DNA from: Candidatus Zixiibacteriota bacterium
GTDB lineage: Bacteria; RBG-13-66-14; B26-G2; WVWN01
Assembly: GCA_030613505.1 (NCBI GenBank)
Contig: JAUWLW010000067.1
Coordinates: 1 to 11,034, forward strand
DNA length: 11,034 bases
Direction: 5' to 3'
The number at the start of each line of letters is the position of its first letter. Positions within the stretch are counted from its first letter, which is position 1. A program made the translations under genes and the position numbers. Shown piece after piece: positions 2,497 to 11,034 of the stretch. The notes under the pieces were generated by a model. It made no database searches and was not told the DNA's origin. It saw only the letters and a program-made list of their open reading frames with translations.

Positions 2497-4359
2497 TTAA
2501 AACGGGTGGCCGAAGGCGAGGTATATGTATCCCCGCCGTTTTTGGACCCGGCCGAACACCGGCCAACCGACGTCGAATCTGACGGGTCCCACGATCGTGT
2601 TGTAACGGATGCCGAACCCCGCGCCGTAGCGGAGGAACTCTTTTTTCATTTCGTCCCACTCGGGCCATACGTTGCCGGCGTCGACGAAGAGCGCTCCCCA
2701 TAAGTGCTCCCAACCTGTTTTTCCGGCGACGAAGGGAAACTGGGAGCGGAGCTCGACGTTGGCTTCCAGAAGGATGTCGCCTCCCAGGGCGTAGCCTTCC
2801 TTGGTCTGGGGGCCGAGGCCCTGTTCGGGATAACCCCTGACAGAATACGCGCCGCCGGAGACGAACCGACGCACGTGCGGAACGGCCTCGGTATCGCCGT
2901 AGGGTTCAATGTATCCGGCGTGGAGGCGCGTCGCGACCGACGCGGCCTCGGCCAACCGTATGTACCGGCGGACGTCGCCGATGGCGCGCCACAGGTCCAC
3001 TCCCAACATAAACCCGCCCGCTCTTTCGTACGAGCTATAGGCGTACGTACCCGTCAGGGGGTTGAAGATGTCGTCGGAGCCGTCATACGTGACCGAGAAT
3101 ATGTAGCTCGAGAGGTTCTGGGGTTCCTCTATTTCGGCGTACCGTTGGGGAAGGCCTACTTCGCGGGGCCGGGAAGAGCCGGCGCCCTCTTCCGGCGGTT
3201 CGTCGAATTCCGTGCGGAACCTCTCGAAATTGAATCCGCCCGAGAGCTCGAGGTCGTCGGTTATCTCGCGGGAAACGCGCGGCTTGAGGCCCGCTTCCCA
3301 CTCGTGCAAACCCTCGTATATCTCGCGCTCATAATAAAGGGACACGGTGCCTTTGTACCGGTACCCGAATAACCACGGTACCACGTACGTGATGTCTCCC
3401 TCCGCCTCGCGACTTTTTTCCTCGTAGCCGTAAGCGATCGAGGTTTCGATCGACAAACGTTCGTTATCGCCGAAGACGTTGTTGTGGCCCCACCCGAAGC
3501 CTAGTGCGACACGGTCCGGCGAGGAATACCCTGGTTCGATTTTGAACCAGCGGAACTTGTCCTCGTTGACGATGACGACGACGTCGGCCCGGTCCGGCGC
3601 GCGCTCCGAGTCGACGACGTCTACGACGAGGTCGCGGTAAAGGCCGGTCTTGTAGACGTTGGCGCGTCCCTCGTCGAGCTTGGAGGCTCGCCACAGGCGG
3701 GAGGGGTTGAGTTTGTAGTCGATTTCCCGGGCCGCGATCTTGGCGCGCGTCTTTTCGTTGCCGCTTACGACGACTTTGTCGATGTGGTATTTTTCCCCTT
3801 CCTCGACGGTATAAAGTACTACCGCCGAATCGCGGTCTATCTCCGCCGTAATTTTCGCGCGGCCGTAACCGCGCTCGTTGTAGTAGTCGCCCACCCGCAC
3901 CGCGGCTTCGTTCAGGGCCGGCGCGGAGAGGGGCGCCCCCGGCTCGACGCCGAGCGCGTCGCGAACGGCCGCGAGCCGCTCGGGGGCTACGCCTTGCGCG
4001 ACGACCTCTTTCACTACCGCCCGGGGCCCCTCCTCGACGAGGACCTTCAACTCGCGTTTGCCTTTTTTACTCTCGGCGAGTTCGAAACCGACTTGTACGT
4101 TCTCGAAACCCTCGGCGTAATATGCTCCCTCGACGGCGGCCAGGCCGGCCTCGAGCAAATAATCGAAGTTGTACTCCTCGTAACGTTCGCCTTTTTCCAG
4201 TCCGACGAGGTTCTTTACGGCGGCGTCTTTAAATGTTTTATTCCCTTCAACGCGAATTCGGCCGAGAACGAAGTCGGCGTCGCCGGTCTCTTCCAACGCG
4301 AACGCCCGGCAGGAGGCGACGCAAGAAAAGGCGACGACGTACGCGGCGAGTGACCTCAT
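2497..4359 (-). CDS. tamA: TamA/BamA-like outer-membrane protein (Omp85 superfamily, POTRA domains plus beta-barrel)
   Basis: This encodes 620 residues from the ATG at 4359, close to the family's usual 570-650. A signal peptide covers about residues 1-20 (MRSLAAYVVAF..., cleavable after AFA). Three POTRA-like domains follow at about 32-107, 108-190 and 191-270; the first opens with IRVEGNKTF and the third with VVVSGNEKTR, typical POTRA first strands. The 16-strand barrel domain (bacterial surface antigen family) spans about 275-620. It includes the diagnostic L6-loop VRGY motif (507-510, in SVRGYPEQGLGP), a GALFVDAGNVW strand, GPVRFDVGWPV, and a final strand ending in Phe. Omp85 proteins insert or translocate proteins at the outer membrane; three POTRAs and the TamB-like gene directly downstream point to TamA rather than BamA. 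An in-frame GTG at 4383 would add eight residues, but it coincides with the predicted transcription start and neither codon has a clear Shine-Dalgarno sequence, so ATG is preferred. Confidence 0.92.
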   Translation of the reverse strand: MRSLAAYVVAFSCVASCRAFALEETGDADFVLGRIRVEGNKTFKDAAVKNLVGLEKGERYEEYNFDYLLEAGLAAVEGAYYAEGFENVQVGFELAESKKGKRELKVLVEEGPRAVVKEVVAQGVAPERLAAVRDALGVEPGAPLSAPALNEAAVRVGDYYNERGYGRAKITAEIDRDSAVVLYTVEEGEKYHIDKVVVSGNEKTRAKIAAREIDYKLNPSRLWRASKLDEGRANVYKTGLYRDLVVDVVDSERAPDRADVVVIVNEDKFRWFKIEPGYSSPDRVALGFGWGHNNVFGDNERLSIETSIAYGYEEKSREAEGDITYVVPWLFGYRYKGTVSLYYEREIYEGLHEWEAGLKPRVSREITDDLELSGGFNFERFRTEFDEPPEEGAGSSRPREVGLPQRYAEIEEPQNLSSYIFSVTYDGSDDIFNPLTGTYAYSSYERAGGFMLGVDLWRAIGDVRRYIRLAEAASVATRLHAGYIEPYGDTEAVPHVRRFVSGGAYSVRGYPEQGLGPQTKEGYALGGDILLEANVELRSQFPFVAGKTGWEHLWGALFVDAGNVWPEWDEMKKEFLRYGAGFGIRYNTIVGPVRFDVGWPVFGRVQKRRGYIYLAFGHPF

Positions 4360-4389
4360 GGCGGCGACGCGTTGAGCGCACACCGGCTA

Positions 4390-5663: not shown

Positions 5664-5694
5664 TTGCGGCCTTTGAAATAGGCCGCAAGTTTTT
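5664..5694 (+). terminator. Intrinsic terminator of the propeller gene
   Basis: TTGCGGCCT (5664-5672) and AGGCCGCAA (5680-5688) form a perfect 9-bp stem with a 7-nt loop. G and five T residues follow (5690-5694). It lies about 80 nt after the propeller stop codon and separates that gene from the efflux operon. Its tail overlaps the upstream half of the shared bipartite motif at 5686-5713. Confidence 0.85.
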
Positions 5695-5713
5695 ACGCGT
5701 GCCGCGGTCTAAA
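5686..5713 (+). promoter_or_regulatory. Candidate ECF-type promoter motif of the efflux operon (copy 1)
   Basis: CAAGTTTT (5686-5693) and GTCTAAA (5707-5713) recur upstream of the anti-sigma gene at 10090-10117 with the same spacing. Twenty of 28 positions are identical between the two copies, without gaps. The layout resembles ECF-sigma promoters (an AAC/AAG-T-rich -35 and a GTC/TCTAA -10). Transcription would start near 5720, about 30 nt before the TolC-like start and upstream of its ribosome site. The left half overlaps a terminator tail, so part of the match could be coincidental. Confidence 0.4.
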
Positions 5714-5736
5714 CGGGTAGGATCAACTATACGCTA

Positions 5737-5742
5737 AAGGAG
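5737..5742 (+). promoter_or_regulatory. Ribosome binding site of the TolC-like gene
   Basis: AAGGAG at 5737-5742 ends 7 nt before ATA at 5750. It is more than 45 nt from the first conventional in-frame start (GTG at 5789), which has no ribosome site of its own. This site decides the start call. Confidence 0.75.
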
Positions 5743-5749
5743 ATACGTT

Positions 5750-7000
5750 ATAAAAAAGCTGGCGATTTTCGCTATCGCGCTGGCGCCAGTGCAGGCCGCG
5801 TCGTCCACGCTTTCGCTTGCGGACGCGCTCGCGACGGCGCTTCAGCATAGTTTGAAAGTGGAGCTGGCCGGCGTCGAGCGGTCGCAGGGCAAGCAGGCCC
5901 TGGCCGAGGGCGTCGCGTCGGCCTTACCCGACCTGAGCGCGGCGTACTCGACGAGCGGGACCTCCTTCGCCGAGTTGGGAGATACGTGGCGCTTCGGGTT
6001 CTCGCTGACGCAGCCGGTCGTCGACGCGACCGTCGTCTTCGACGTTATGCGCGGCTTCCGGGAGAGCGACTACTACCGCGCGAAGTCGGCGCGAACGGTC
6101 GCCGACCTGATCCTGGCGGTCCAGAGCGGCTACTACGATTTGGCTCAAGGCCAGGGGTTGGTCGCGAGCGCCGAAGGGCAGCACCGACGCGCCGTCGGGA
6201 ATCTGAAGATCGTGGCGAGGCGCTACGAGTTGGGAGAGGCCAACCTGGCCGATAAGTTGCGGGCCGAGGCCGACCTCCTCACGAAGGAGACGGAGCTGCT
6301 CTCCGCGCGCAACGGCGTCGAGGAGAACCAGCGGTCGTTTTCCGACCTCATCGGCCTCGACCGCTGGGAGGCCGTCGAGGTGGAGGAGCTGCCGCCCCCC
6401 GAGGAGCCGTACGAGCTTCCCACTACGGTTATCTCCGCGGCCGTGCTCGAAAAAAACCCCGACCTGACGGTCCTCAGGATGCAGGTGGAGGCGTCGGACG
6501 TGGCGTATTGGAGCGCGTGGGGAAACTTGCTCCCGGCGCTGTCGTTCTCTTATAGTCGGGGTTCGACCTTCGGGGGGTCCATATTCCCCGGCGAGGAGAG
6601 CGACGACACGCGCTACGGCGTGGTCGTGAGTCTTCCCGTCGTCGACGTCGTGGACCGCGTACTCGGCGTCACCGGCGCCCGGCTGGACCGGAAGCAGTCC
6701 CGCCTCGAGTTGGCCCAGGCCCGGCTCGATGCCCGCGAGCGGCTGGCGAGCTTATTGGCCACGCAGGAGTTGTCCCACAAGGAATGGGAGTCCGCATCCA
6801 AGACGGTGGAGCTCTCGGAAGAGGTCTACCGCCTTAACGCCCGGAGCTACGAATTGGGCGCCGTCTCCTTCGATGACTTGTTGCAAGTGGAGGCGGAGCT
6901 CGGCCAGGCCGAGCGCGCGCTAATAGAAGCCAAGGCCGGCTACTGGTTAAGCCGCGCCGAACTTAATTACGAACTCGGGACCTCGGTGGAGGAAAGATGA
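5750..7000 (+). CDS. TolC-family outer-membrane efflux channel, apparent ATA start
   Basis: This encodes 416 residues if read from ATA at 5750. TolC-family trimers form the outer-membrane exit duct of tripartite pumps. The first 16 residues (initiator, KKLAIFAIALAPVQA) form a signal peptide that a GTG start at 5789 would remove. The protein shows the internal duplication of the outer-membrane efflux family: repeat 1 at about 20-205 and repeat 2 at about 230-410, joined by an acidic, proline-rich linker (PPPEEP near 215). The same motif appears in each half, YELGEANLADKLRAE and YELGAVSFDDLLQVE, typical of the long helical hairpins of the periplasmic tunnel. Length is slightly below the common 420-490. 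The stop overlaps the next start (ATGA at 6997-7000), so expression is coupled to the MacA-like adaptor. No ATG, GTG or TTG lies between the upstream in-frame stop (5735) and 5789; ATA may be genuine or a sequence error. Confidence 0.9.
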   Translation: MKKLAIFAIALAPVQAASSTLSLADALATALQHSLKVELAGVERSQGKQALAEGVASALPDLSAAYSTSGTSFAELGDTWRFGFSLTQPVVDATVVFDVMRGFRESDYYRAKSARTVADLILAVQSGYYDLAQGQGLVASAEGQHRRAVGNLKIVARRYELGEANLADKLRAEADLLTKETELLSARNGVEENQRSFSDLIGLDRWEAVEVEELPPPEEPYELPTTVISAAVLEKNPDLTVLRMQVEASDVAYWSAWGNLLPALSFSYSRGSTFGGSIFPGEESDDTRYGVVVSLPVVDVVDRVLGVTGARLDRKQSRLELAQARLDARERLASLLATQELSHKEWESASKTVELSEEVYRLNARSYELGAVSFDDLLQVEAELGQAERALIEAKAGYWLSRAELNYELGTSVEER

Positions 7001-8148
7001 GCAAGAAAAGGCGCCAAAAGTTGATACGCGCTCTCGTAATCGGCGTCGGCGTTTTGTTGGCCGTAATCGTAATTTTAAAAATTTCCTGCCGACGTCCCGG
7101 ATTGCCCGAGGTCGAGGTGATGAGCCTGGCGCCGGGCGACATCGTGTCCACCGTTTCCGCGGACGGCGAACTCGAGGCTCTCAACCAGGTCGACATTTCG
7201 GCCGAGATCGTGGCCCGGATTGAGAGAGTGTACGTGAAAGAGGGCGACGAGGTCGAAAAAGGCCGGCTCCTGTGCGTTCTCGACGACGACGAGCTGAGTT
7301 CGCAGCGCGACTTGAATCGCTCCCGGTTGGTCGAGGCGGAGGCTTCGTACAAACGCGGCAAAGCGCTCTTCGATGAGAAACTCATTTCGGAGGCTGACTT
7401 CGACGCGCGGCGCACGGCGTACGAAGTCGCGAGGTCCCAGCTCGAGCAGAGCGAAGACAACCTCGGCAAGACGCGTATCTACGCGCCCATATCGGGGCGG
7501 GTGGTCCGCGTGGAAGTGGAGGAAGGCGAGACCGTCGTATTGGGGACGATGAACAACCCGGGGACGGTAATGTTTACGCTGGGCGACCTCTCCGCCATGC
7601 AGGCCAAGATATACGTGGACGAGGCGGACATCGTCTACGTCTCGGCCGGCCAACCGGCGAAGGTGACGCCGGACGCCCTACCGGACGCCGCGTTCGACGC
7701 CCGGGTTAGGTCCATCGGTTACATGCCGGCCACCGATACCGGCGCCGCCGGGACCGACGTAACCGAGTTCGAAGTCGCCCTGGACCTCGCCGACGTCGAT
7801 CCTCGTTTGCGGCCGGGGATGTCGGTTACGGGGGCGATCACTACGGCCGAGCGGGGAAACGTCCTCACGTGTCCGCTGCAAGCCATAGGAAGGCGCGAGA
7901 TAGGGGGGCGGGCACGCGATACGGTTTTCGTTTTAGAAGGAGGTCGGGCCAAGCTTGTTCCCGTGAAAACGGGCATCTCCGACGGGACGCGAGTGGAGAT
8001 CGTGGAGGGTTTAAAAGCCGGGCGAAAAGTCATCGTTGGCCCCTACAAAGTGCTCCGGGCCATCGACGACGGCGACGAGGTTAAAGTGCTCGAAGGAGAA
8101 GGTAAATGGCCGAAAGGCGAGAGGCCGGGGTCGCACGGGCCCCAGTAG
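6997..8148 (+). CDS. MacA-like periplasmic adaptor (membrane fusion protein) of ABC efflux pump
   Basis: The 383-residue length compares with about 370 for MacA. The protein links the inner-membrane ABC transporter to the TolC-like duct. A basic N-terminus and one membrane helix (about 10-29) anchor it, with the rest periplasmic. The biotinyl-lipoyl-like domain is split into halves at about 66-95 (VARIERVYVKEGDEVEKG) and 160-185 (RIYAPISGRVVRVEVEEGE), flanking a short helical hairpin (about 100-158). A beta-barrel domain (about 200-285, ending in RPGMSVTG) and a membrane-proximal domain (about 290-355) follow. The signature phrases YAPISGRV and RPGMSV are typical of RND/MacA-type adaptors. 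GGAGG at 6988-6992 precedes the ATG, which overlaps the TolC-like stop. The hydrophilic C-terminal tail (after about 365) is encoded within the 43-bp overlap with the ATPase gene. HlyD-like adaptors for other ABC pumps are the alternative. Confidence 0.92.
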   Translation: MSKKRRQKLIRALVIGVGVLLAVIVILKISCRRPGLPEVEVMSLAPGDIVSTVSADGELEALNQVDISAEIVARIERVYVKEGDEVEKGRLLCVLDDDELSSQRDLNRSRLVEAEASYKRGKALFDEKLISEADFDARRTAYEVARSQLEQSEDNLGKTRIYAPISGRVVRVEVEEGETVVLGTMNNPGTVMFTLGDLSAMQAKIYVDEADIVYVSAGQPAKVTPDALPDAAFDARVRSIGYMPATDTGAAGTDVTEFEVALDLADVDPRLRPGMSVTGAITTAERGNVLTCPLQAIGRREIGGRARDTVFVLEGGRAKLVPVKTGISDGTRVEIVEGLKAGRKVIVGPYKVLRAIDDGDEVKVLEGEGKWPKGERPGSHGPQ

Positions 8149-8813
8149 AGCGCGTTATCGAGCTGGCCGGCGTGTCGAAAGTTTACGACACGGGACGCGT
8201 CGCCGTGAGGGCGCTCGACGACGTCGACTTGCGGCTCGAAGCCGGCGGATATATGGCTATCATGGGCCCTTCCGGCTCGGGCAAGTCCACGCTCATGCAT
8301 ATCCTGGGATGCCTCGATACGCCGACGTCGGGTTCCTATTTCCTTCGCGGCCACGAGGTATCCCAATACGCCCGCAAGAAGCTGGCCCAGGTGCGCAACC
8401 GGGAAGTCGGTTTCGTATTCCAGCGCTTCAACCTTCTCCCCCGGCTCACCGCGGCCGAGAACGTGGAGCTGCCGCTTTTATACGCCGGCGCTTCGGCGGA
8501 GCGACGGCGGGAAGTGGTGGCCGACCTGCTGGCCAAGGTGGGGTTGTCGGACCGGGGCCACCACAGACCCAACGAACTCTCGGGGGGCGAAGTGCAGCGG
8601 GTGGCCATCGCCCGGGCGCTGGCCAACGACCCGGCGATCATCCTGGCCGACGAACCTACCGGGAACCTCGACTCCAAGAGCGAAGAGGATTTAATGCAGC
8701 TCCTGGACTCGCTTAACGAAAAAGGGAAAACCCTGGTTGTAGTAACGCACGAAGACAGCGTCGCCCGGCACGCCAAGCGCGTAATCACGCTGCACGACGG
8801 GAGGGTGGTATGA
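8106..8813 (+). CDS. ABC transporter ATPase of MacB/LolD type
   Basis: A single 235-residue nucleotide-binding domain that powers the pump in the cytoplasm. The motifs appear in order: A-loop Tyr27, Walker A GPSGSGKST (54-62), Q-loop Gln106 in FVFQRFNLLP, signature LSGGE (158-162), Walker B IILADE (178-183, catalytic Glu183), D-loop (NLDS) and H-loop His215 (VTHED). The LSGGE variant and FNLLP sequence place it in the MacB/LolD/YknY group. It overlaps the adaptor gene by 43 bp. The start is nevertheless well supported by AAGGAG at 8093-8098, 7 nt before the ATG, and the resulting N-terminus is normal for the family. Its stop overlaps the permease start (ATGA at 8810-8813). In E. coli MacB this domain is fused to the permease; here the two are separate, as in Gram-positive YknYZ and LolCDE systems. 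Confidence 0.95.
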   Translation: MAERREAGVARAPVERVIELAGVSKVYDTGRVAVRALDDVDLRLEAGGYMAIMGPSGSGKSTLMHILGCLDTPTSGSYFLRGHEVSQYARKKLAQVRNREVGFVFQRFNLLPRLTAAENVELPLLYAGASAERRREVVADLLAKVGLSDRGHHRPNELSGGEVQRVAIARALANDPAIILADEPTGNLDSKSEEDLMQLLDSLNEKGKTLVVVTHEDSVARHAKRVITLHDGRVV

Positions 8814-10060
8814 ACTTCCTGACGGTGTTCGCGCGGGCGGTTGCGTCTATGCGCTACAACAAGACGCGTTCCTTCCTGACGGCGTTGGGGATAATTATCG
8901 GCGTGACCACCATAATCGCCATCGTGGCGTTGCTGAAAGGGCTCGACCGCACCATCGACCAGGAGTTCTCGTCGCTAGGAACCAAGACCATCTACGTCCA
9001 GAAAATGGAGCTGGAAATAGGCTTGCGCCGACATAGGAATTTTGAAGAGATAAGTAAAAGGCCGGACCTTACGGTAGAGGACGCGGCCGCCATTTCCGAA
9101 CTCGCTACGGTCCGGGCCGCGGTTCCCTACATCCCCCGGAATTTGGGTACCCTCACGCGAGGGATTTACGAGGCGGACGAATGCATCCTCGCCGGCATCG
9201 GGGAGGGCGGCGACCTCACGGGTAATTGGATTATTTCCCGGGGGCGCTTTATTACACGCTACGACCAGCAGCATCGCAATATGGTGTGCGTGATCGGCTC
9301 GTACGTAGCCGATAACCTTTTTGGCCGGGGCGAGGAACCGCTAAACCAGACGCTTGAGGTGGACGGCCGCCGGTACGTCGTCGTCGGCGTATTGGAGGAA
9401 AAAGGCGGCTCGTTCGGCCATCCCCAGGACAACCAAATTTTCATCCCCGTCGAAACCCACCTTAAATATTATTCCCTTCCCGAAGGCCGCGCCTCCGTAT
9501 TCCGCGGCATGAGAATCGAGGTTTTACCCGAAGAGGAAGTCCCCGTCGAAACCGCGGTGGCGGACGTCGAGGAGCTTCTGCGCCTCCGGCACGGCCTTCG
9601 GTATTACGAAGATAACGACTTCGGCCTTAATACCCAGGAGTCGATGCTCTCGTCCTTGAACACTATCAGGTCCGTGCTGTGGCTGGTGATGGTGGGCGTA
9701 GCGGGCATCTCCCTTCTCGTAGGAGGTATCGGCATCATGAACATCATGCTGGTGTCGGTGGCCGAGCGCACGCGGGAGATAGGCATCCGCAAGGCCGTGG
9801 GCGCGAGCGACGTCGACATTACGGTGCAGTTCCTCTCGGAGGCGGTGGCGCTTGCGTCCGTAGGCGGCGTCGTAGGCATCGTCCTGGGGCTGGCGGCGGG
9901 CGCGTTCGTATCCGCGATTACGCCGCTGCAAGCCGCGGCGCCGTGGTGGACCGTCGTTTTGGGCGTCGGTTTCTCCGCGGCGGTTGGGATAATATTCGGC
10001 ATTTACCCGGCCCGGAAGGCTTCGGGCCTCAACCCCATAGACGCGATAAGGTACGAGTGA
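8810..10060 (+). CDS. ABC transporter permease of MacB/FtsX type
   Basis: The 416-residue permease has the four-helix MacB layout. TM1 is at about 23-44, a large periplasmic MacB-PCD domain at 45-285, and TM2 (286-312), TM3 (341-369) and TM4 (377-400) form the FtsX domain. The cytoplasmic coupling segment ERTREIGIRKAVGA (319-332) and the C-terminal PARKASGLNPIDAIRYE tail are diagnostic. MacB-type transporters are mechanotransmitters that expel substrates from the periplasm through the adaptor and TolC; they do not move them across the inner membrane. Known substrates include macrolides, peptides, heme precursors and siderophores; the substrate here cannot be read from sequence. GGAGG at 8800-8804 serves the ATG at 8810, which overlaps the ATPase stop. 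LolC/E-like lipoprotein release is less likely because an adaptor and a TolC are encoded alongside. Confidence 0.94.
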   Translation: MNFLTVFARAVASMRYNKTRSFLTALGIIIGVTTIIAIVALLKGLDRTIDQEFSSLGTKTIYVQKMELEIGLRRHRNFEEISKRPDLTVEDAAAISELATVRAAVPYIPRNLGTLTRGIYEADECILAGIGEGGDLTGNWIISRGRFITRYDQQHRNMVCVIGSYVADNLFGRGEEPLNQTLEVDGRRYVVVGVLEEKGGSFGHPQDNQIFIPVETHLKYYSLPEGRASVFRGMRIEVLPEEEVPVETAVADVEELLRLRHGLRYYEDNDFGLNTQESMLSSLNTIRSVLWLVMVGVAGISLLVGGIGIMNIMLVSVAERTREIGIRKAVGASDVDITVQFLSEAVALASVGGVVGIVLGLAAGAFVSAITPLQAAAPWWTVVLGVGFSAAVGIIFGIYPARKASGLNPIDAIRYE

Positions 10061-10089
10061 GCTACGTCGCCGGCGGGCCGGGACACGCG

Positions 10090-10117
10090 CAAGTTTTACG
10101 CCGTACGGTTGTCTAAA
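10090..10117 (+). promoter_or_regulatory. Candidate ECF-type promoter motif before the anti-sigma gene (copy 2)
   Basis: CAAGTTTT (10090-10097) and GTCTAAA (10111-10117) repeat the bipartite motif found at 5686-5713, with identical spacing and further matches in the spacer. It occupies the 74-nt gap between the permease stop and the anti-sigma start. Transcription would begin around 10123, leaving a leader of only about 12 nt, which is short because the ribosome site starts at about 10124. Co-transcription with the pump is also possible, as no terminator is visible in this gap. Confidence 0.4.
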
Positions 10118-10134: not shown

Positions 10135-10587
10135 ATGGCTTGCATAGACGGAAAAAAACTTTCGGCGTACGTAGATGGCGAGCTGTCCGAAGAGGACGCG
10201 GCGGCGATAGGGGAACATCTTACCCATTGTGGGGCCTGCCGGGAAGAGCTGTCCCGCCTCGAGTTCGTATCGGAAGCCCTCGAGTCGCTGGAAGGGGCGG
10301 AGCCGGACCCGTACTTCGCGCGCCGGCTTAAGCGTTTGGCCGCCGAGGGACGGCGTAGGAATTGGCCCGGGCGGGTACTCGTACCGGCGGCGGCGGCCGC
10401 GGCGGCCGCGCTGTCGTTGGTGGCGGGGAGCTTTCTGGGCCGTGCGCTATACGCCGAGCCGAACGGTGCCTCGTCGCCGGCCAACGGCGACCTGGTGGAG
10501 TACCTCGGCGTCGCGCCGGTGGAGGATTTCCCCGACGGCTCGTTGGGCGAGGCTTGGGGGGACGTCTGGACGGAAGGAGACAGCTAA
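10135..10587 (+). CDS. Putative anti-sigma factor with zf-HC2 zinc finger and one membrane helix
   Basis: The 150-residue protein resembles ZAS-type anti-sigma factors, which hold an ECF sigma factor inactive at the membrane. The N-terminal zf-HC2 domain (about 3-45) carries the H-x3-C-x2-C zinc motif (His28, Cys32, Cys35), with Cys3 as the likely fourth ligand, and the usual LSAYVDGELSEE phrase. A basic linker (62-80) leads to an Ala-rich transmembrane helix (about 82-104). A short acidic periplasmic tail (105-150) follows and contains no enzymatic domain. AGAGGA at 10124-10129 precedes the ATG. The stop overlaps the next start (TAATG), so it is coupled to the LTxxQ sensor gene. A partner ECF sigma gene normally sits just upstream but is absent here; the pump permease occupies that place. 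It could instead be a zf-HC2 protein without a sigma partner. Confidence 0.82.
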   Translation: MACIDGKKLSAYVDGELSEEDAAAIGEHLTHCGACREELSRLEFVSEALESLEGAEPDPYFARRLKRLAAEGRRRNWPGRVLVPAAAAAAAALSLVAGSFLGRALYAEPNGASSPANGDLVEYLGVAPVEDFPDGSLGEAWGDVWTEGDS

Positions 10588-11034
10588 TGAAACAAAAAAT
10601 ACTGATAATCGCACTCGTCGTGTCCGTTGCCCTGAACGTCGGCGCGTTGGTAACGTTCGCCTACCGGTGCGTTACGAGGCCGGAGCCACCCCGGCCGCCG
10701 TGCCCGCTGGCCCAAGAGTTGGATTTGACCGACGAGCAACGCGATAAGATGCGGGCGAGGCGCGAGAAGGCGTTTGAGGAGATGGAGCCGCTCCGGCGAG
10801 AGCTGCATGCCAAACGCGGCGAAGTACTGGCCTTATTGAAGGAGCCGGAGGTCGACGTCGCGCGGCGCGACCGGCTCTTTGCCGAGATCGCGGACCTCCA
10901 GATGCGGATGGAGCTTTCGACTTTCGAAAATATGCGTGAGACGAGGGACATGCTCGGTCCCGACCAACAGGAGCGCTTCGTGGGCCTCGTCGAAGAGCGC
11001 TTCCGTAAGCACGAGCATTTCGCGCGGGGCCCGG
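10587..11034 (+). CDS. CpxP/CnrX-like LTxxQ periplasmic sensor, 3' end outside window
   Basis: The frame is open to the window edge (149 residues seen). The N-terminus is a signal anchor or signal peptide (about 4-25, KILIIALVVSVALNVGALVTFAYR). A Pro-rich linker (31-40) follows, then a charged all-helical domain with two LTxxQ-like motifs, LDLTDEQ (45-51) and LGPDQQ (123-128). This is the pattern of the CpxP/Spy/ZraP and CnrX (heavy-metal sensor) families, which are periplasmic helical-hairpin dimers. The last visible stretch contains His142 and His144 and may begin a metal-binding tail. AAGGAG at 10574-10579 lies 7 nt before the ATG, which overlaps the anti-sigma stop. Pairing with a zf-HC2 anti-sigma recalls CnrYX, where CnrX senses metal and restrains or releases the anti-sigma. 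Whether it senses metal or misfolded protein cannot be told here. Confidence 0.82.
   Translation, partial: MKQKILIIALVVSVALNVGALVTFAYRCVTRPEPPRPPCPLAQELDLTDEQRDKMRARREKAFEEMEPLRRELHAKRGEVLALLKEPEVDVARRDRLFAEIADLQMRMELSTFENMRETRDMLGPDQQERFVGLVEERFRKHEHFARGP

Follow-up and report, generated by a model that had tools for sequence, protein, structure and literature searches.

Are the efflux pump operon and the anti-sigma operon encoded side by side in this DNA controlled by one ECF sigma factor, and if so, where is the gene for that factor? The window, i.e., the whole stretch analyzed (11,034 bases), is the entire contig C14 and ends within the gene for a Metal_resist/LTXXQ protein. The question arises from a bipartite motif, CAAGTTTT-N13-GTCTAAA, that the initial annotation had noticed on the forward strand before both operons, and our analysis reproduced it: the copies lie at 5686-5713 and 10090-10117, agree at 20 of 28 positions, and have the same 17-nt gap between CAAG and GTC. 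Each can be parsed as a predicted ECF promoter that matches the pattern exactly, with a 13-nt spacer between -35 and -10 elements located at 5686-5693 and 5707-5713 before the pump genes and at 10090-10097 and 10111-10117 before the anti-sigma gene. Classical ECF promoters carry AAC in the -35 element (PMC8103513), whereas both predicted promoters have AAG there; the ECF-type -35/-10 geometry is otherwise conserved before the two operons. A search for housekeeping promoters on the forward strand at both sites found none. We found no description of the motif in the literature searched, which did not extend to the main ECF classification paper, so that it may have been described earlier. One literature match to CAAGTTTT, in an ECF paper, was discarded because it was a PCR primer and not a promoter.

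The two sites stood out from the background. With up to three mismatches allowed, the 15-base pattern matched the window twice, both times exactly, against 0.11 matches expected, and none of 200 shuffles reached two. Across the 2.86-Mb genome (93% complete, so about seven per cent may be missing from these counts, all of which are pattern searches), the same two sites were the only matches at zero or one mismatch. Two mismatches added a single site, antisense within an ORF, which is background level (three forward matches versus two for the reversed control pattern), and spacers of 11 to 15 gave no further sites. The exact long form, CAAGTTTTT-N12-RTCTAAA, was confined to the window's genus among 193 genomes across bacteria (0 of the 190 other genomes). 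The caveat that the first copy doubles as a terminator tail in its left half was justified: a terminator-like hairpin of the upstream gene with its T tail (5664-5694, forward strand; hairpin z-score -3.5) forms at 5664-5688, is followed by GTTTTT, and overlaps the -35 half of the pump-side copy.

The genes behind the first copy, all on the forward strand, form a complete MacAB-TolC set in which ATPase and permease are separate genes. They encode a TolC-like outer membrane efflux protein (5750-7000; Pfam OEP, 4.9e-42), a MacA-like periplasmic adaptor (6997-8148; Pfam HlyD_D23, with NCBIfam RND_mfp above cut-off), the ABC ATPase of the pump (8106-8813; Pfam ABC_tran, 3.7e-33), and a MacB-like permease with the MacB periplasmic core and an FtsX-like domain (8810-10060; Pfam MacB_PCD and FtsX). 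The MacA and MacB scores fell below the NCBIfam equivalog cut-offs, so the similarity does not imply a pump substrate. The TolC-like gene has an apparent ATA start codon (5750-5752), with a strong AAAGGAG site 7 nt before it; a stop closes the frame five codons upstream, and initiation at the next GTG (5789) would truncate the signal peptide. Orthologs (L071, L073, and L109) have ATA, ATC, and ATT at the equivalent position, which suggests that a near-cognate start (AUA, AUC, or AUU) is conserved in four species. Beside the pump region, on the reverse strand, an Omp85/POTRA protein (2497-4383) adjoins a protein that matches DUF748 and TamB (3-2480), and the two resemble a TamA-TamB pair.

The second copy precedes a gene for a membrane-bound anti-sigma factor of the zinc-finger, class I type (10135-10587, forward strand; zf-HC2), with one hydrophobic segment and an HxxxCxxC motif that, together with an upstream Cys, was invariant in six relatives. 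Its profile is RsiW-like, RsiW being the best match among solved structures. Next comes LTXXQ1 (10587-11034, forward strand), a Metal_resist/LTXXQ protein with an N-terminal membrane anchor, which is cut by the contig end and for which a PDB sequence search returned nothing significant. The genes downstream were assigned by synteny with two congeners (G001 and G003) and a member of the same order but another family (G004), in all of which the operon runs anti-sigma, LTXXQ1, LTXXQ2, ECF sigma. LTXXQ2 is presumably exported and has a weak Spy-like match. In the window's own genome (G000), a sigma gene roughly 82% identical to its G001 ortholog lies at C21:546-1118, on a contig that starts within LTXXQ2, and alignment to G001 leaves a gap of about 110 bases between C14 and C21. 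We infer that C14 continues into C21 and that the sigma gene ends the anti-sigma operon here as well. The protein has about 190 aa and belongs to the sigma2-sigma4 type, with Pfam Sigma70_r2, NCBIfam sigma70-ECF above cut-off, and matches to RpoE and SigW structures. The initial annotation had supposed that the sigma gene lies elsewhere; its place as last gene of the anti-sigma operon in the three relatives, and at the head of C21 in the own genome, rules this out. The class I arrangement, an anti-sigma factor with HxxxCxxC sharing an operon with its sigma factor, is likewise seen in the three relatives and, by synteny, in the own genome.

Comparison of the upstream regions in related genomes, which had been proposed as a check, favored a functional motif. 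G001 has exact copies at both positions, G003 has copies with one mismatch each, and in G004 the anti-sigma gene is preceded by an exact copy; a less exact form precedes the anti-sigma operon of G014, from another phylum. No clear motif was seen in G040, even though all three kinds of gene (sigma, anti-sigma, and LTXXQ) are present there. In anchored alignments, 14 of the 15 motif columns were invariant versus 0 to 5 of the 13 spacer columns, and the flanks were also far less conserved. The hairpin before the pump is common to the window and G001 and missing from G003, where the pump-side motif persists with no hairpin adjacent, so the terminator does not account for the motif.

A further congener, G002 (a single contig), provides a natural comparison in which the sigma factor and the motif are both absent and the pump is kept. 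Its MacB is 91% identical, but the anti-sigma operon that should follow it is gone, as is the pump-side motif, in place of which a TGTTATAAT box lies upstream of the pump. Neither the LTXXQ genes nor a sigma ortholog were found; the best matches to the sigma factor were other ECFs, at 32 to 43% identity, in a genome rated 78% complete, in which the pump locus itself is intact and absence elsewhere is less certain.

The association between motif and sigma factor was examined more widely in 80 ECF loci gathered by sigma sequence alone, with neighbors and motif scored afterwards and a locus called LTXXQ-linked if an LTXXQ gene lay within 2.5 kb. The 32 LTXXQ-linked loci held 27 matches to CAAGTTTT-N13-RTCTAA at no more than one mismatch, all on the sigma strand, where shuffles predicted 1.2 and the reversed pattern gave none, versus 2 matches in the 48 loci without LTXXQ, although kinship among the sequences inflates these counts. 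Many of the 27 matches lie directly before the sigma or anti-sigma gene; several LTXXQ-linked loci had no clear motif. A maximum-likelihood tree placed the own sigma factor in a clade (support 98/96) in which 38 of 43 rows are LTXXQ-linked and 27 of 43 have the motif (up to two mismatches). On the other side of that branch, 0/46 are LTXXQ-linked and 1/46 has the motif. The label clusters strongly on the tree (5 changes versus a shuffled mean of 28.8), and several phyla are spanned. Outside the clade, ECF genes of Pseudomonas and related ECF genes have GAACTTTT-N13-GTCTA upstream, which keeps this geometry and carries the classical AAC. Separately, close to the LTXXQ-linked sigma operon at L165, L208, and other flavobacterial loci, CAAGTTTTT-N12-ATCTAA precedes genes for putative lipoproteins and for small EF-hand-like proteins, and these genes are likely regulon members in Flavobacteriaceae.

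We consider it highly probable, from these comparisons, that both sites serve as promoters for a single ECF sigma factor, whose gene closes the operon headed by the anti-sigma gene, and that this factor controls the pump along with its own regulators. Another reader of the same sites is conceivable, since the own genome has five ECF-like genes and cross-recognition among ECFs is known in general. That the factor responsible is one of the genome's four further ECFs is nevertheless improbable: G002 keeps other ECFs and has lost the operon's sigma factor together with the motif, which ties the motif to that factor, and the motif follows the LTXXQ-linked clade, outside which three of the other own ECFs fall (the tree included the own sigma factor and three of the four others). 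Slightly less probable still is a two-part binding site for an ordinary transcription factor. Two blocks at a fixed distance would suit a DNA-binding protein, but the blocks are not palindromic, their strand is fixed and their position is just before genes, the GTCTAA of the -10 element and the spacing are ECF-like, the motif is associated with a sigma clade, and no forward-strand housekeeping promoter was found at either site. Chance resemblance, with the first copy merely a terminator tail, could appeal to the overlapping hairpin and to there being only two copies in the window, but it is hardly credible given the shuffles, the whole-genome counts, the absence of the exact long form from 190 other genomes, and the retention of both sites in congeners, one of them lacking the hairpin.

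The promoter reading thus leaves the pump and the anti-sigma/LTXXQ genes very probably in one regulon, as the initial annotation had proposed, on the strength of the paired motif, its conservation, its co-absence with the sigma factor in G002, and its occurrence across the clade. The wider envelope-stress regulon that had been imagined around them was not visible: the genome-wide pattern search marked the pump and the sensor operon only, and neither a looser pattern nor variable spacers added any convincing site to these two in the own genome. Additional loose matches were antisense within ORFs in G001 and G004 and, in one case in the own genome, between genes on the opposite strand. Two relatives have one extra motif-bearing gene each, encoding in G003 a 392-aa protein (L074:1094-2269) found in none of the other four genomes and in G004 an apparently secreted protein. 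The circuit therefore looks local, with lineage-specific additions. In G014, the motif also lies directly upstream of a gene for a 433-aa protein (L112:1588-2889) that by eye resembles a membrane iron-sulfur protein.

ECF systems respond when a signal releases the sigma factor, target genes are transcribed, and newly made anti-sigma factor returns the system to rest. By analogy, the membrane-bound zinc-finger anti-sigma factor would hold the sigma factor at rest, and the two periplasm-facing LTXXQ/Metal_resist proteins may tune the anti-sigma factor as sensors or chaperones. A signal, probably from the envelope or from metal, would free the sigma factor, which would then transcribe the TolC-MacA-ATPase-MacB pump from 5686-5713 and the anti-sigma and sensor genes from 10090-10117. 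The expected result is more efflux and more inhibitor, i.e., negative feedback. What the DNA shows directly is that the motif occurs as a conserved pair, that it goes with the sigma clade, and how the operon is built; that transcription starts at both sites and depends on the operon's own sigma factor is what we infer from this.

The position of the sigma gene at the end of the operon is unusual. It comes first in all 32 LTXXQ-linked loci elsewhere, and also in G014 and G040, and last in the window's lineage. The predicted sigma-dependent promoter before the anti-sigma gene lies four genes up, and directly before the sigma gene are a hairpin and a TGTTATAAT box. The hairpin, between LTXXQ2 and sigma (L005:440-510 on C21 of the own genome; -26.1 kcal/mol, z-score -4.7), has counterparts in relatives (L071, L073, and L075). 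In three congeners, all of the window's genus, TGTTATAAT comes after it as an extended -10 of the housekeeping type; G004 has no clear -10. In the relatives the hairpin lacks a T tract and may therefore not terminate transcription. Hairpin and box together suggest that the sigma factor is mainly supplied constitutively. It is possible, at somewhat less than even chances in our judgment, that the circuit has been rewired, such that sigma-dependent promoters drive pump, inhibitor, and sensors, the sigma gene has moved to the operon's end, the sigma factor is made mainly constitutively from behind the hairpin and extended -10, and induction raises the levels of inhibitor and pump but hardly that of the sigma factor. 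If true, this would be a homeostatic negative-feedback ECF switch in place of the usual self-amplifying kind.

Overall, judged by its sequence, the locus is a well-supported, solid instance of a familiar type of bacterial stress circuit, unusual in its gene order. It supplies an LTXXQ/Metal_resist-linked ECF sigma clade that spans several phyla with a promoter motif and with a regulon small enough to check. It also predicts how an uncultured lineage controls a MacAB-type pump, and it allows targets of the clade to be predicted in culturable Bacteroidota.

Among characterized systems, cnrYXH-cnrCBAT of Cupriavidus metallidurans (CnrH sigma, CnrY anti-sigma, CnrX sensor) is similar in its order of anti-sigma factor, membrane-anchored periplasmic Metal_resist-type sensor, and sigma factor, and in its local regulon. 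There, the regulators and the trans-envelope pump each have a CnrH-dependent promoter of their own, cnrYp and cnrCp (PMC9045368), the same layout as the two sigma-dependent promoters predicted here. CnrY belongs to class II of the anti-sigma factors (PMC7406223) and has no zinc finger, unlike the zf-HC2 class I type in the window, and the cnr pump is an RND-type heavy-metal exporter and not a MacAB-type ABC pump. Because anti-sigma class and pump type differ, the system described here is, by these sequence features, outside CnrYXH proper; its sigma gene is also preceded by a second LTXXQ gene and by a hairpin that a housekeeping-type promoter accompanies. In Bacillus subtilis, the MacAB-like pump yknWXYZ belongs to the core SigW regulon (PMC3498285). 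The SigW-RsiW system thus shares with the one described here an ECF sigma factor, a class I anti-sigma factor (RsiW, the best structural profile match), and a MacAB-like target, but its regulon is large where the present one looks local. We know of no LTXXQ sensors in the SigW system. In Bacteroidota, Ignavibacteriota, and others, the LTXXQ-linked ECF operons have the sigma clade, neighbors, and promoter motif in common with this system; they differ in that their sigma gene comes first and not last, and in that their predicted outputs are EF-hand and other secreted proteins or lipoproteins, whereas here the predicted output is a pump.
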